Assembly (NCBI RefSeq): GCF_900112595.1 | Contig: NZ_FOMI01000002.1 | Location: forward strand, 16,690 to 80,689 | DNA length: 64,000 nucleotides | Source of the DNA: Algibacter pectinivorans | Lineage (GTDB): Bacteria; Bacteroidota; Bacteroidia; Flavobacteriales; Flavobacteriaceae | Direction of reading: 5' to 3' | In this document: positions 22,426 to 29,039 of the stretch, in pieces | How the letters are laid out: each line of letters begins with the position of its first letter | Position numbering within the stretch: the stretch's first letter is position 1 | Program-made: the position numbers and the translations under genes | The notes under the pieces: generated by a model | Databases searched by the model: none | Told to the model about the DNA's origin: nothing | The model's input: only the letters and a program-made list of their open reading frames with translations

Positions 22426-22680
22426 ATGAAAAAACCTAACCAATTACCTAAAATGTACTGCAACCTTTTTGGCCATGATTATCAAGTTACTAAGCGAGTA
22501 ACTTACCATGTAAAGGAGTACACTTGTAGACATTGCAAAACACAACTTACCACAAATAGCAATGGCAGTTTAACCAAGCTTACACCTAAATTTAAGGAAA
22601 TTAACGCTATTCTTGAAAGAATTCACAACTCTAGAACGCAACGTTTAAAGAATAAAAATCTCTCTTCGTCGATTTATTAA
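22426..22680 (+). CDS. Small CHCC zinc-binding protein, DUF1660-like (tandem copy 1)
   Basis: An 84-residue protein with C-x4-H (CNLFGH) followed by C-x2-C (CRHC). That C/H/C/C set would bind one zinc, as in small DUF1660-type proteins. It then has a polar helix (LTPKFKEINAILERIHNSRTQRL). It is clearly homologous to the next gene at DNA level too (the ACTTACCATGTAAA block is shared), so the pair arose by tandem duplication. Function unknown; family assignment is by the Cys/His layout. Confidence 0.75.
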   Translation: MKKPNQLPKMYCNLFGHDYQVTKRVTYHVKEYTCRHCKTQLTTNSNGSLTKLTPKFKEINAILERIHNSRTQRLKNKNLSSSIY

Positions 22681-22754: not shown

Positions 22755-23015
22755 ATGAAGAGCATCCAATGCAAGGTGTTTGGGCATGACTTTAAAATAT
22801 CTAGACACGTTACTTACCATGTAAAAGAATACGCTTGTAAAAATTGTAAAACAGAACTTACCACAAGCGGAAACGGCGAATTAGTAGAATTAACTCCTAA
22901 ATTTAGAGAAATAAACGACGTTTTAGAGCGCATACATCACAAACGCATTCTAAGAAAAAACGCCCCTCTAAACCAAGAACTGGATAAAACCCAAGCAAAA
23001 CTGCGTATTGCTTAA
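22755..23015 (+). CDS. Small CHCC zinc-binding protein, DUF1660-like (tandem copy 2)
   Basis: An 86-residue paralogue of the preceding gene. CKVFGH gives C-x4-H and CKNC gives C-x2-C, in a shared frame HVTYHVKEYACKNCKTELTT. The C-terminal helix is longer and basic. The two copies sit 74 bp apart on the same strand, and a third, shorter relative lies at 28833. Its TAA overlaps the stop of the converging thiL by 4 bases (TTAA). Confidence 0.75.
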   Translation: MKSIQCKVFGHDFKISRHVTYHVKEYACKNCKTELTTSGNGELVELTPKFREINDVLERIHHKRILRKNAPLNQELDKTQAKLRIA

Positions 23016-24130: not shown

Positions 24131-25516
24131 ATGACTTTTTCACGCCCATTTTCCTACCTAATACTTGCATGCGTTATAGTTTTTAATATACAATCTTGTA
24201 ATGATGAGCCCTACGAAATAATTCCTGTAGTAGATAGCGATAGCGATGGCATTTTAGATGATTTTGATAATTGCCCATTTATAAGCAACCCAAACCAATT
24301 AGATGATGATAAAGATGGTATTGGAAATCTTTGCGATGATGATTTTATTAATACTGAAAATACACCACTAGCTATTTGCAAAAACGGTTTTGCCGATATT
24401 TACCCCTGTAACGATTACGATTTAATGGCAAACATACCATTAACCATTTTTGGTGCTACAGCAGGCAATGATTGTTGGGGTTGGACAGACACCACAACCG
24501 GAAAAGAATATGCGTTAATGGCAACATCGCACAACACGGCATTTATTGATATTACCGAACCTACCGCGCCCATTTACTTAGGAAATCTTCCAACAGCGAC
24601 CTCTAGTAGCCCTTGGCGAGACGTTAAAGTGTATAAAGACCACGCATTTGTAGTTGCCGATTGCAGCCTAGGAAACGACCCTAATTGTAACGACAACCAT
24701 GGTATGCAGGTATTTGATTTAACACGATTGCGTAACGTACCTAACCCTCCAGAAACTTTTACGGCAGATACACATTTTACCGAGTTTGGCAAAGCGCATA
24801 ACATTGTAATTAACGAAGATTCTGGCTATGCTTATATTGTTGGCGCCAACCGAAGCTCAACATACCTTGGAGGCCCGATTTTTATAAACATTCAAGACCC
24901 TAAAAATCCAGTTGCCGAAGGTGGATTTAGCGAAGGCGGCTACTCCCATGATGCCCAAGTTGTCACATATAATGGACCAGATAGTGATTATAGCGGTAAA
25001 GAAATTTTAATTGGCAGTAATGAAAACGAGGTGGTTATTGCAGATGTTACAGATAAAGCAAATCCAACCATTATTTCAACTATAAGTTATGCTAACGTGT
25101 GGTACGCACACCAAGGTTGGTTTACTCAAGACATGAAATATTTTATTTTAGGCGACGAGTTAGACGAAGCTAGAGCCGGAAACAACACAAGAACCGTTGT
25201 TTTCGATTTTACAGATTTAGATAATCCTGCATTTCATTTTGATTATTATGGCGAAAGCGCTGCAATAGATCATAATGGTTATGTAAAAAATGACACCTAT
25301 TATTTTGCCAGCTACCGTGCCGGAGTGCGAATGCTAAACATTTCTAACATAGGAAATAGCAGTTTTACAGAAGTTGGATATTTTGACACCTACCCAACTA
25401 ACAACGGTACCGAGTTTAATGGCGCATGGAGTATTTATCCATATTTTTCTAGCGGAAACATAATAGTAAGCGATTTAGATAGAGGCTTATTTATTATAAG
25501 AAAAAGTGGTTCATAG
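24131..25516 (+). CDS. Choice-of-anchor B family lipoprotein with thrombospondin-3 repeats
   Basis: A 461-residue lipoprotein (lipobox in FNIQSC). Residues about 34-72 are calcium-binding TSP3-type repeats (DSDGILDDFDNCP, then DDDKDGIGNLCDDD). The remainder fits the choice-of-anchor B domain: about seven strand sets of the LVIVD kind (AFIDITEPTAPIYLGNL, MQVFDLTRLRN, IFINIQDPKNPVAEGG, VVIADVTDKANPTIIS, VVFDFTDLDNPAFHF, RMLNISNIG, GLFIIRKSG), which suggests a seven-bladed propeller. It is the first gene of a four-lipoprotein operon ending in the MbnP/MbnH pair. TATATTTG at 24077-24084 may be its -7 element. Confidence 0.82.
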   Translation: MTFSRPFSYLILACVIVFNIQSCNDEPYEIIPVVDSDSDGILDDFDNCPFISNPNQLDDDKDGIGNLCDDDFINTENTPLAICKNGFADIYPCNDYDLMANIPLTIFGATAGNDCWGWTDTTTGKEYALMATSHNTAFIDITEPTAPIYLGNLPTATSSSPWRDVKVYKDHAFVVADCSLGNDPNCNDNHGMQVFDLTRLRNVPNPPETFTADTHFTEFGKAHNIVINEDSGYAYIVGANRSSTYLGGPIFINIQDPKNPVAEGGFSEGGYSHDAQVVTYNGPDSDYSGKEILIGSNENEVVIADVTDKANPTIISTISYANVWYAHQGWFTQDMKYFILGDELDEARAGNNTRTVVFDFTDLDNPAFHFDYYGESAAIDHNGYVKNDTYYFASYRAGVRMLNISNIGNSSFTEVGYFDTYPTNNGTEFNGAWSIYPYFSSGNIIVSDLDRGLFIIRKSGS

Positions 25517-25526
25517 AGGTCTTAAT

Positions 25527-26891
25527 ATGTCTATTTTCATAAAGTCATACCAAAATTTAATAGGCGTTCTCGCCATAGCCTTGTTATGCTTTAATTGTTC
25601 TAAAACAGAAGAATCTTCAAAAACTATAACCGAATCTGTTACCATTAATTTTGTAAAATCCCTAGGCGGATCCAAAAACGAAAGCGCTCAAGCTATTACC
25701 AAAACTTTAGATGGTGGTTATGCTATATTAGGATACACACAAAGTTTAGATGGCGATATTACCAATAAAACCAACGAGTCTTTTGATTACTGGATCCTAA
25801 AATACGACCAAAACAGTAACCTAGAGTGGCAAAAAACTTATGGCGGAACTGATGATGACAGAGGTAACGACATAATTCAAACCTCAGATGGCGGGTATGC
25901 CATAATTGGATTTAGCAAAAGTAACGATGGCGATATTACAAGTAACCAAGGTGCTCAGGACTTTTGGGTATTAAAACTAACAGCTTCTGGTACTATTTTA
26001 TGGCAAAAAAATTATGGTTTTTTAGGGGCCGATATAGGCAACACCATAATCCAAACCAACGATGGCGGCTTCTTACTAACGGGAGTTTTAGATGTTTCGG
26101 CGTCTAACGGACAGGGAAATAGCAAAAACGCGAATGCAAAACATTCAAAAACAGCACATGCTGGAGGCGATTACTGGGCCATTAAAATAAATGCTTTAGG
26201 AGCTATCCAATGGCGCAACTATTACGGAGGCTCTTTTACCGATACACCATATGATGCCATTCAAACCGAAGATAATGGGTTTTTACTTGTAGGCTCGTCC
26301 GATAGCAGCGATGTGGATATTAAGGGTAATTTAGGTACCTACGATTTTTGGGTGGTAAAACTATCTGAAACCGGAGCTCTTGTTTGGGAGAAATCGTTTG
26401 GTGGCTCGCAAACCGATGAAGCTAGAAGCATTGCTAAATCTAGCGATGGCAACTATATTATTGTTGGTAATACTAGAAGTAGTGATAACGACGTTTCTAT
26501 TAACAATGGTGCTGCAGATTTATGGGCTATTAAAATAACACCTACAGGAAACCTTATTTGGGAGAAATCTTTTGGTGGCTCTAGTTTTGATGTCGCACTT
26601 TCTATTTCTAAAACAGTAGATAACCACTTTATAATAGCGGGAAACTCCCGAAGTTTAGATAGCAATTTAACCAAAAATTACGGACAAAATGACGCATGGA
26701 TTTTAAAAATAGATACTAACGGAAATCTTTTATGGCAAAACACCATAGGAGGATCAGAAATTGACTTTGCCTACGACGCTGTCGAGCTAAACAACAAAAG
26801 CATCATAGTTGTTGGAGACACTAGTAGTGCTAATTTTGATCTTTCAGCTAACAATGGATTTTCAGATTTACTCATATTCAAATTAAATTAA
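25527..26891 (+). CDS. Lipoprotein of seven beta-propeller-like repeats
   Basis: A 454-residue lipoprotein (signal ending ALLCFNC). From about residue 37 to the end it holds seven repeats of about 60 residues with the pattern (A/I)I-x-T-x-DGGY-x-I-x-G-(Y/F)-S-x-S-x-DGD(I/V), then W-V-x-K-L-x-x-x-G-x-L-x-W-x-K-x-(F/Y)-GG. Examples are TSDGGYAIIGFSKSNDGDI and SSDGNYIIVGNTRSSDNDV. Seven copies fit a seven-bladed propeller; the fold is inferred. The ATG at 25527 is preferred over a GTG seven codons upstream, because it starts a clean signal and leaves a 10-bp gap to the previous gene. No enzymatic residues recognised. Confidence 0.78.
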   Translation: MSIFIKSYQNLIGVLAIALLCFNCSKTEESSKTITESVTINFVKSLGGSKNESAQAITKTLDGGYAILGYTQSLDGDITNKTNESFDYWILKYDQNSNLEWQKTYGGTDDDRGNDIIQTSDGGYAIIGFSKSNDGDITSNQGAQDFWVLKLTASGTILWQKNYGFLGADIGNTIIQTNDGGFLLTGVLDVSASNGQGNSKNANAKHSKTAHAGGDYWAIKINALGAIQWRNYYGGSFTDTPYDAIQTEDNGFLLVGSSDSSDVDIKGNLGTYDFWVVKLSETGALVWEKSFGGSQTDEARSIAKSSDGNYIIVGNTRSSDNDVSINNGAADLWAIKITPTGNLIWEKSFGGSSFDVALSISKTVDNHFIIAGNSRSLDSNLTKNYGQNDAWILKIDTNGNLLWQNTIGGSEIDFAYDAVELNNKSIIVVGDTSSANFDLSANNGFSDLLIFKLN

Positions 26892-26900
26892 ATACATAAA

Positions 26901-27665
26901 ATGAAAAGAATCTCCCTTTTACTTCTTATTTTATTAACGCTATCCTTGGCATGTAGCAATAATGATAAAGTAGATTTAACCAATGTTACGTTCAATTTTA
27001 ATCATAATTGGGATGGCACTAAGGTTACAAACGCCGATTTCAATACTTTAAAATTCACTAATGCGTACGGCAATCAAATGAGCATAGAACGTTTACGCTA
27101 CCTTATTTCAAGAATAGTATTTCAAAAAAGTAATGGTAAAACTATTGTTTTAGAAGGCTACAACCTAGTTGATGTTACAAATAATGAAACCCTATCTTTT
27201 ATGCCTTCAACCTTTGTTACAACAGGCGAATACAGCAATATTTCATTTACTTTTGGGTTTAATAATGAAGCCAATACAAACAACTATGCCGACTTAAATA
27301 CAGCATCATGGAATGTACCAGACATGCTTGGTGGCGGTTACCATTATATGCAACTGGATGGTAAATTTTTAAACGATGCCAATGAAGAACAAGGCTATAA
27401 CTACCATGCTATTCGGGCAGTTGATACCCCAGGAGAAACCCCAAGTTTCCCTCAAGACACATTTATAGTTGTTAACCTTGGTCCAACCACAATAACCGAT
27501 AATGCCACTTTTAATATTGAAATGAATATTGCCGAGTGGTTTAAAACACCAAACACTTGGAATTTAAATGAATTAAACCAAACACTTATGCCAAATTCGG
27601 CAGCACAAATAATGATGTATGAAAACGGACAAAATGTATTTAGTTTAGAATCTGTAAATCAATAA
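26901..27665 (+). CDS. MbnP-family copper-binding lipoprotein
   Basis: A 254-residue lipoprotein (signal ending LSLAC). The body matches the MbnP family: VTFNFNHNWDGTKV, SIERLRYLISRIVFQ, VDVTNNETLSF, and a beta-rich end with ATFNIEMNIAEWFKTP. In studied members MbnP binds copper through a tryptophan oxidised to kynurenine by the di-heme partner MbnH. Candidate Trp residues are those in HNWDG, ASWNVPD, AEWFK and NTWNL. The next gene, 5 bp downstream, is exactly that partner. The copper role is family knowledge and is unproven here. Confidence 0.8.
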   Translation: MKRISLLLLILLTLSLACSNNDKVDLTNVTFNFNHNWDGTKVTNADFNTLKFTNAYGNQMSIERLRYLISRIVFQKSNGKTIVLEGYNLVDVTNNETLSFMPSTFVTTGEYSNISFTFGFNNEANTNNYADLNTASWNVPDMLGGGYHYMQLDGKFLNDANEEQGYNYHAIRAVDTPGETPSFPQDTFIVVNLGPTTITDNATFNIEMNIAEWFKTPNTWNLNELNQTLMPNSAAQIMMYENGQNVFSLESVNQ

Positions 27666-27670
27666 CTTAA

Positions 27671-28717
27671 TTGAACAAATGGTTGTACCATATCGCGCTT
27701 GCTTTCCTGTTTTGTTTTTCTTGCGAAAATGAGCCAGTAGAACAATACGTGGCAACTCCAAGCCCTTTACAAATTCCAAAACTATTTTCAGACAATATAA
27801 TTGCACCAATAATCCCCATTAACAATCCACAAACCCAAGAAGGCATTGCATTAGGGAAAAAATTATTTTTCGATCCCATTTTATCTGGAAATAACACCCA
27901 AGCCTGCGCAGACTGTCATGCTCCAGAAAATGCATTTACAGATTCGGCTAAATTTAGCGAAGGCATAAACGGCAATTTAGGCACCAGAAATTCCATGCCT
28001 CTATTTAACCTAGCTTGGAATTACGATGAAAAATTCTTTTGGGATGGCAATACTTTTAGTTTAGAACACCAGGTATTTGTTCCTGTTTCAGACCCAACCG
28101 AAATGAATAGCAACTGGAAAGATGTCGTACTAAAACTACAACAACACAGCGAATACCCAAACTTATTTAAAAATGCTTTTGGCACAAATAATATCGATTC
28201 AACTTTAATATCAAAAGCCATTGCACAGTTTGAACGCACCTTAATTTCTGCCAACTCTAAATTTGACCAATATCTTTTAGGTGAAACCAAATTAACGCCC
28301 AATGAACTAAACGGTTTTAATGTTTTTATGGACGAAACCAAAGGCGATTGTTTCCACTGTCATGGTAGCGACAAAAACCCACTCTGGACAGACCATGCAT
28401 TTCATAACAATGGTCTAGACAACGCTTTTACAGATCTAGGTTTAGGTGCCGTAACAGGAGATCCAGCCGACAACGGAAAATTTAAATCCCCCTCGCTTAG
28501 AAACCTTGCCTTTACCGCGCCATATATGCATGATGGCCGATTTGCAACACTAGACGACGTTATAAACCATTACAGCCAAGGACTAAAAAACTCTGCAACT
28601 GTAGACCCTTTAATGAAAAAACTAAACCAAGGCGGTGTTCAATTATCTGATAACGACAAAGCCGATTTAAAAGCTTTTCTACTAACACTTTCGGATTATG
28701 AATTTATAAGCAATTAA
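27671..28717 (+). CDS. Di-heme cytochrome c peroxidase / MbnH-like lipoprotein
   Basis: A 348-residue exported protein with two c-type heme sites, CADCH (79-83) and CFHCH (near 227), in the CcpA/MauG/MbnH fold. Conserved stretches include PSLRNLAFTAPYMHDGRF and DDVINHY. A lipobox (LFCFSC) makes it a lipoprotein. The start is TTG: an in-frame TAA lies directly before it (27668-27670), and the N-terminal MNKWLYHIAL is needed for the signal. Being fused in operon to MbnP, it most likely oxidises a tryptophan of MbnP rather than acting only on peroxide. That is inference from the pair. Confidence 0.87.
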   Translation: MNKWLYHIALAFLFCFSCENEPVEQYVATPSPLQIPKLFSDNIIAPIIPINNPQTQEGIALGKKLFFDPILSGNNTQACADCHAPENAFTDSAKFSEGINGNLGTRNSMPLFNLAWNYDEKFFWDGNTFSLEHQVFVPVSDPTEMNSNWKDVVLKLQQHSEYPNLFKNAFGTNNIDSTLISKAIAQFERTLISANSKFDQYLLGETKLTPNELNGFNVFMDETKGDCFHCHGSDKNPLWTDHAFHNNGLDNAFTDLGLGAVTGDPADNGKFKSPSLRNLAFTAPYMHDGRFATLDDVINHYSQGLKNSATVDPLMKKLNQGGVQLSDNDKADLKAFLLTLSDYEFISN

Positions 28718-28832: not shown

Positions 28833-29039
28833 ATGAACACAACTACTTTAAATGCGTTTTGTATTGCCTATGGACACAATTACTTCAGGCTTCACAAAGC
28901 CAACGAAAATACACCAGAACTTGTATGTAAGTCTTGTCGTGGTTATTTTAAATTTGAAAACAACGGCATAATAACACCCTTTTACAATTCAGAAAAGAGT
29001 GTCTTTACAGTTAATTTTCTTCACAAAAAAACGGCTTAA
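28833..29039 (+). CDS. Small CHCC zinc-binding protein, DUF1660-like (third copy)
   Basis: A 68-residue protein with FCIAYGH (C-x4-H) and CKSC (C-x2-C), then a short Phe-rich strand region and a basic tail. It shares the layout of the two tandem copies at 22426 and 22755 but is more diverged. It stands alone, 115 bp after the MbnH-like gene and 216 bp before sufA. No operon partner is obvious and the function is unknown. Confidence 0.65.
   Translation: MNTTTLNAFCIAYGHNYFRLHKANENTPELVCKSCRGYFKFENNGIITPFYNSEKSVFTVNFLHKKTA

Follow-up and report, generated by a model that had tools for sequence, protein, structure and literature searches.

A four-lipoprotein operon of marine flavobacteria that combines a propeller pair with an MbnP/MbnH-type pair

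In a 64,000-nucleotide stretch of Algibacter pectinivorans DNA (contig NZ_FOMI01000002.1, positions 16,690 to 80,689 of the forward strand; hereafter the window), four lipoprotein genes, here called A, B, C and D, form an array on the + strand at positions 24131-28717. This array is a composite operon of two modules: the propeller-type pair A-B is found at one chromosomal site in many Flavobacteriaceae, and the MbnP/MbnH-type pair C-D lies directly behind it in one branch. The A-B-C-D combination is real and conserved in marine flavobacteria. Its tight packing, already described in the initial annotation, is confirmed, with an intergenic spacing of 10, 9 and 5 bp in the window and a lipobox at the start of all four proteins. 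The genes are:

24131..25516, + strand: gene A, choice-of-anchor B propeller lipoprotein that also has a thrombospondin type 3-like stretch
25527..26891, + strand: gene B, lipoprotein with about seven propeller-like repeats (repeat Trp pairs, His218; weak SBBP propeller match)
26901..27665, + strand: gene C, MbnP-fold lipoprotein of the GGYH variant
27671..28717, + strand: gene D, di-heme MbnH/MauG-like lipoprotein

Two modules at one chromosomal site

A scan of GTDB contigs with D yielded 123 relatives, of which the best 80, close relatives of the window, were kept; the nearest named relative is the D of Algibacter amylolyticus (90% identity). A-B-C-D are present in order on one strand in 77 of these 80 loci, and the remaining three (L026, L088, L094) end at a contig edge upstream. 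A wider sample of 149 genomes of Flavobacteriaceae contains 80 MbnP matches in 71 genomes, and the family of A (TIGR04312) is found above its cut-off in 76 genomes. Seventy-eight of the 80 MbnP places were fetched; the two left out both belong to genome G147, one of them lying in an A-B-C array cut by the contig end (L213). D directly follows C in all 78 loci. A-B precedes the pair in 47 of them, and the 31 loci with C-D but without A-B all carry the WxW motif of canonical MbnP. The linkage of the four families extends well beyond the genome of the window. The median gaps between A-B, B-C and C-D are 9, 2 and 6 bp (n=118, 117 and 124); the window itself (L166) and some near-duplicates are counted among the 124 A-B-C-D rows, and four places are duplicated in the canonical rows used below. 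In a sample of 247 genomes across the phylum, A and C exceed their cut-offs in 77 and 66 genomes, respectively; among the matches listed, inspected by eye, they lie at most 6 kb apart only in three genomes, all Flavobacteriaceae (G000, G148, G256). The four-gene set is named in no title found by our literature search, which left subscription papers outside and does not establish absence from print.

The propeller pair also occurs on its own. We fetched A from 26 family-sample genomes that have A but no MbnP beside it, taking all 20 loci of one set and 6 of the 16 of another, and 22 of these loci hold A-B without any C-D. The other four comprise two with A but not B (L189, L194), one where A-B is followed by sufA and fails the length filter (L195) and one on a short contig (L201); genome G045, with a weak A match, was not fetched. 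Of the 22 A-B-only genomes, G098 alone has an MbnP match at all. The surroundings are shared, as thiL-like and sufA-like genes are both present in the fetched stretch of 113 of the 124 A-B-C-D loci and 19 of the 22 A-B-only loci. In a joined A+B tree of 84 rows, the 22 A-B-only loci fall on one side of a branch with support 97, which on this unrooted tree points to a single event behind A-B, either a gain or a loss of C-D. Since A-B manages without C-D in the sister clade, C-D is separable from A-B.

Two kinds of C-D pair use this site. In the D tree (90 rows), the GGYH-type D proteins stand apart from the WxW type with support 99. The D proteins of four WxW-type A-B-C-D operons fall among the canonical WxW pairs, grouping with L125, which has no A-B in its fetched stretch (support 95). 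In the A+B tree, two of these four operons are nested in a clade whose other members are of the GGYH type (support 99). These positions show that two distinct kinds of pair occupy one slot. Replacement of C-D in place behind A-B is the simplest reading; the alternative is an old double set followed by differential loss.

The remodelled pair C-D

The assignment of C to MbnP and of D to MbnH-like two-heme proteins in the initial annotation holds. C passes the Pfam MbnP model PF20243 (93.1 bits against a gathering cut-off of 27) and has the MbnP fold according to a fold search with its predicted structure (MbnP structure 7l6g). A PDB sequence search with C, with its profile or with the canonical copy from the same genome found no MbnP; the structure was reached by a profile of 29 canonical rows and by the fold search. 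D matches the general CCP_MauG family of Pfam. Its best structure match is 6e1c, which we take to be an MbnH, 50 bits above the next, and bacterial peroxidase structures follow from E 8.6e-37 downwards. The MbnH-type features of D are two CxxCH motifs, a Trp aligned with that of 6e1c and the adjacent MbnP-fold gene. The key positions of both proteins are:

27309..27317, + strand: C W137-N-V139, profile-aligned to the WxW site of canonical MbnP
27342..27350, + strand: C H148-Y-M150, which may provide new copper ligands in the variant class (H148 in 51/51 and M150 in 45/51 variant rows)
27405..27407, + strand: C His169, the His of the canonical MbnP HxG (51/51 variant, 39/39 canonical rows)
27905..27919, + strand: D first heme motif, C79-A-D-C-H83
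28040..28042, + strand: D Trp124, aligned with the Trp of 6e1c and presumably the inter-heme position (51/51 variant, 36/37 canonical rows)
28349..28363, + strand: D second heme motif, C227-F-H-C-H231

C departs from the signature of canonical MbnP. All 29 canonical rows compared share the motif M-x-W-x-W-x-x-G ... H-x-G with 7l6g, whereas C reads A-S-W137-N-V-P-D-M-L-G-G-G-Y. The first Trp (W137) and His169 are kept; the second Trp is replaced by Val, the spacing is changed and the signature Met, found in 39/39 canonical rows, occurs in 0/52 variant rows. In addition, the variant has gained a conserved His at position 148, which is Lys or Arg in 34 of 39 canonical rows. W137 aligns with the first Trp of WxW only via a four-residue insertion, a placement on which hmmsearch, hhalign and a profile merge agree and which takes the place of the plain loss of WxW that a MAFFT alignment had suggested; C may thus still have the kynurenine Trp. 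Nine of 51 relatives have Phe or Met at this position. Given the missing Met and second Trp, the insertion and this variation, the transfer of MbnP kynurenine chemistry to C, implied in the initial annotation, is uncertain. A study by Manesis from 2021 reportedly dealt with the kynurenine of MbnP. The genome of the window also encodes a second MbnP/MbnH-type pair (L115 6957-8929; G000:C15, ~24656-26628) with an intact WxW and no propellers beside it, which provides an internal control for the variant pair.

In D of the GGYH class both heme motifs, W124, E144, Y285 and the MHDG stretch (YMHDG) are kept in 49-51 of 51 rows. H245 is present in 51/51 rows of this class, compared to Arg in 35/37 WxW partners. 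Among the latter, eight of 37 rows (L130-L133, L135, L138, L139 and L018, the last being the same place as L135) read G-S-F-G-Q rather than M-H-D-G-R at 286-290 of the di-heme protein, which suggests a di-heme subclass with changed heme surroundings. In L110 (7789-8911) the di-heme gene is split into two overlapping open reading frames and may be broken or affected by a sequencing error.

The propeller proteins A and B

A matches the choice-of-anchor B family TIGR04312 of NCBIfam with 535.5 bits over residues 83-458, far above the cut-off of 100. Pfam at E 1e-3 gives only TSP_3 and no match to the SBP56/methanethiol oxidase family; an SBP56 structure is absent among the best 50 Foldseek matches listed, which excludes nothing. 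The relevant positions of A are:

24476..24484, + strand: W116-G-W118, innermost strand of blade 1 (both Trp in 22/22 A-B-only loci and in 40/40 of L206-L245)
24797..24799, + strand: His223, start of the inner strand of blade 3 in the model, first of four (blades 3-6; 40/40)
24947..24949, + strand: His273, immediately before the inner strand of blade 4 (40/40)
25109..25111, + strand: His327, start of the inner strand of blade 5 (40/40)
25271..25273, + strand: His381, start of the inner strand of blade 6 (40/40)

The set L206-L245 consists of 40 A proteins including that of the window (L221), 23 of them from other families; these are mostly paralogues or distant A, and 30 of the loci have only ~1.5 kb of flank, with at least four known to have C. 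Each of H190, H223, H273, H327, H381, D274, D342 and E343 is present in 40 of 40 of these proteins. In the predicted structure model the four His of the list start the inner strands of consecutive blades, and from this strand order we predict A to be a metalloprotein with a four-His ring at the mouth of the propeller axis. Such a metal site would exist also without C-D. Thirteen A-B-C-D loci of the family sample (out of 47; e.g., L120, L145, L160, L176) have two to four choice-of-anchor B matches in the stretch fetched. Very long choice-of-anchor B proteins (~1030-1070 amino acids) are located elsewhere in several genomes (L206, L207, L215), and the stretches fetched around them contain none of B, C and D.

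Apart from a weak match to the SBBP propeller model of NCBIfam, B is an unclassified protein of propeller-like repeats, in which the repeat Trp pairs and H218 are kept in 90 of 91 rows. Residues 212-216, just before His218 (window 26139-26153; numbering from the GTG at 25506), correspond to gaps in 51-85 of the 91 alignment rows. At E 1e-40, B matches 13 of 196 genomes of the order, seven of its own family and six of another. The matches in the own genome and five others of the family cover at least 413 residues; that in G010 and the six in the other family are partial, so that B-like repeats occur beyond Flavobacteriaceae. Every row with C-D has Arg at position 324 of B (124/124), and no row lacking C-D does (0/22); the difference lies on one branch, and we regard it as weak and do not count it as coevolution. 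G220, D222, Y223 and D266 were also considered as followers of the type of C, and ancestry accounts for much of their pattern: 12 of the 17 exceptions among 120 GGYH rows belong to an A+B subclade that also holds two WxW operons, in which the GGYH rows L143 and L153 are no exceptions.

Acidic tails after the lipobox Cys are surface-export signals of Bacteroidota. Asp or Glu is common there in C (82% at +3), B (70% at +4) and A (57% at +3), as counted with an approximate pattern, which failed to pick up 46 of 540 proteins, and these residues may point to surface exposure of these lipoproteins, a lead only. The ten neighbouring proteins tested with Pfam comprise an amino-acid kinase, an alpha/beta hydrolase, an AIR-synthase-like protein, Fe-S assembly proteins with an ABC ATPase and unknowns; the labels thiL (AIR-synthase-like) and suf (Fe-S assembly) combine our sequence reading with these matches. 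Three small paired-Cys (CxxC) proteins without a Pfam match are encoded at 22426-22680, 22755-23015 and 28833-29039 of the window. The first two are 53% identical and have relatives in 89 of 158 loci examined; the third (68 amino acids, between D and sufA) is a weak relative of them (E 2.6e-5 and 0.001).

A possible copper function and its alternatives

From homology and anatomy we tentatively propose, as the reading we prefer while granting it less than an even chance, that A-B-C-D joins a propeller pair to an MbnP/MbnH-type pair that supplies or guards copper at the envelope. D would act as a di-heme oxidase that uses peroxide to mature C or to maintain the redox state of C. The latter would hold Cu(I) via His169 and a remodelled set of His148, Met150 or Met142 and perhaps an oxidised W137. 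The tight lipoprotein array would place both beside the propellers, so that the pair could serve the putatively metal-binding module A-B; a hand-over of copper from C to A is the least certain step. We consider a more specific version rather unlikely. It would make C a new MbnP class with a predicted copper site independent of MxW(Kyn)xW, rebuilt from His148, Met150 and His169; D would oxidise the displaced W137 or one of the gained W37, W213 and W220, and the class would form the copper-loading arm of a four-His surface propeller, A.

The copper reading of the initial annotation survives in part, as the family linkage and the identity of C and D stand, and the idea that the propeller Trp are kept as MbnH substrates is not supported. 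As members of the MbnP fold and of the MbnH/MauG-type proteins, C and D make a copper or protein-oxidation role a fair lead. Several observations weigh against the copper function proposed here. D scores 261.2 bits against TIGR04039 (MbnH), below the cut-off of 362.85; other partners are also below it, namely that of the WxW copy in the same genome (223.7) and two more (250.8 and 264.7). C has no match to TIGR04052 (MbnP_like_WxW, cut-off 140 bits) at E 1e-3, and WxW-type relatives fall below this cut-off as well (57.5 bits for the own-genome copy). Copper binding by C is predicted from homology, and the His ring of A from strand order. The best 50 VIA-align matches listed for A are mostly WD40-type propellers, and no copper protein was recognised among the ten neighbouring proteins tested. 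Finally, the A+B tree shows a single change in C-D presence, which means that the link arose independently only a few times at most, and from the 22 loci without C-D it follows that A does not generally depend on C or D.

These last points also favour an alternative, a serious if somewhat doubtful one, in which an ordinary copper pair C-D and an unrelated propeller pair A-B share only a promoter and were inherited from one ancestor at a stable locus. The thiL-like and sufA-like neighbourhood common to both kinds of loci fits this view, as do the single clade of A-B-only loci, for which one gain or loss suffices, and the existence of either pair alone (C-D in 31 of 78 family loci, A-B in 22). 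However, median gaps of 2-9 bp are held across the whole family and two different C-D types use the same slot; the pattern of R324 in B argues weakly in the same direction, resting on one branch. It is improbable that D is a plain bacterial cytochrome c peroxidase removing peroxide, with C a binding protein of another kind: the CCP_MauG match and the peroxidase structures would agree with this, yet 6e1c leads the structure matches by 50 bits and the gene before D encodes an MbnP fold in all 78 family loci.

Very improbable in our view is the proposal that D oxidises conserved Trp of the propellers, or that these are docking scaffolds for such chemistry. A carries W-G-W (W116, W118) and three more conserved Trp, D is of the MauG type, and MauG acts on a large protein substrate. 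Yet the A Trp and seven of the 11 listed B Trp are kept at 95-100% in the 22 A-B-only loci: W116, W118, W162 and W433 of A in 22/22 and W330 in 21/22, and W108, W154, W166, W224, W236, W282 and W294 of B in 22/22. The remaining four of B are looser there (W96 and W340 82%, W352 and W398 73%) than with a GGYH pair (88-95%), which is in line with the proposal. Trp retained as MbnH substrates would be expected to decay in loci that lack C-D, but most propeller Trp are undecayed there, although 21 of the 22 genomes are without any MbnP match. Those A Trp that were tested are also found in 40/40 of L206-L245. The comparison of loci with and without C-D disfavours oxidation by D as the cause of Trp conservation, and the substrate idea is unneeded for the A Trp or most B Trp; the propellers may still serve as docking scaffolds. 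Least probable of all, A may be a metal-dependent hydrolase similar to the Sphingobium TCM1 phosphotriesterase, using Mn or Zn rather than copper, with C-D shielding it from copper or peroxide. That enzyme (5hrm) is the top Foldseek match of A (E 5.3e-12, 13% identity), the profile of A finds this type of enzyme by hmmsearch (E 0.0021) and H223 aligns with one of its His in two repeat registers. On the other hand, the hmmsearch match is a weak one that consists of short stretches of repeats, Foldseek ranks generic propellers only slightly lower, and the VIA-align matches mentioned above do not include 5hrm.

Several known systems come close to A-B-C-D in part. The MbnP/MbnH pair (TIGR04052/TIGR04039; 7l6g, 6e1c) shares with C-D the MbnP fold, the heme motifs, the aligned Trp, YMHDG and the adjacency of both genes; C-D differs in sitting behind two propeller-type genes, and the ten neighbours tested include no recognisable TonB-dependent transporter. 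In methanotrophs, the copper proteins MopE/SACCP and CorA/CorB are surface-associated systems in which a copper protein is co-transcribed with a MauG-resembling di-heme protein (PMC3912023). The likeness to C-D is one of description, a copper-type protein with a MauG-like di-heme partner, and the available part of that source describes no propeller partners. In the methanethiol oxidase operons mtoX-SCO1-mauG, the genes for a copper chaperone and a MauG homologue accompany that of a copper-dependent enzyme whose His and Trp are conserved (PMC5739008), which is a precedent for joining a copper enzyme to a MauG homologue. In contrast to MtoX, A falls outside SBP56 by Pfam; MbnP takes the place of SCO1, a second propeller-type gene is present and A-B also occurs without the pair. 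By its title, the structure paper of 5hrm (via PMC11656708) describes a binuclear metal centre in a seven-bladed propeller; this TCM1 enzyme (5hrm, 5ioj) leads the Foldseek matches of A, at the low identity and with the weak profile match given above.

MbnP/MbnH pairs occur far beyond methanobactin producers, where their role is unclear and where one source calls them "mysterious partners" (PMC3621798). The A-B-C-D set is much more widespread than the window alone could show. One chromosomal slot exists in three states, with the propellers alone, with a WxW-type pair or with the remodelled pair, and provides a natural experiment across the family, which allows asking whether copper binding needs kynurenine and which client the copper serves. 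At the same time, the family of A, so far named only choice-of-anchor B, gains a testable function, as its conserved His/Asp/Glu set predicts a metal centre.

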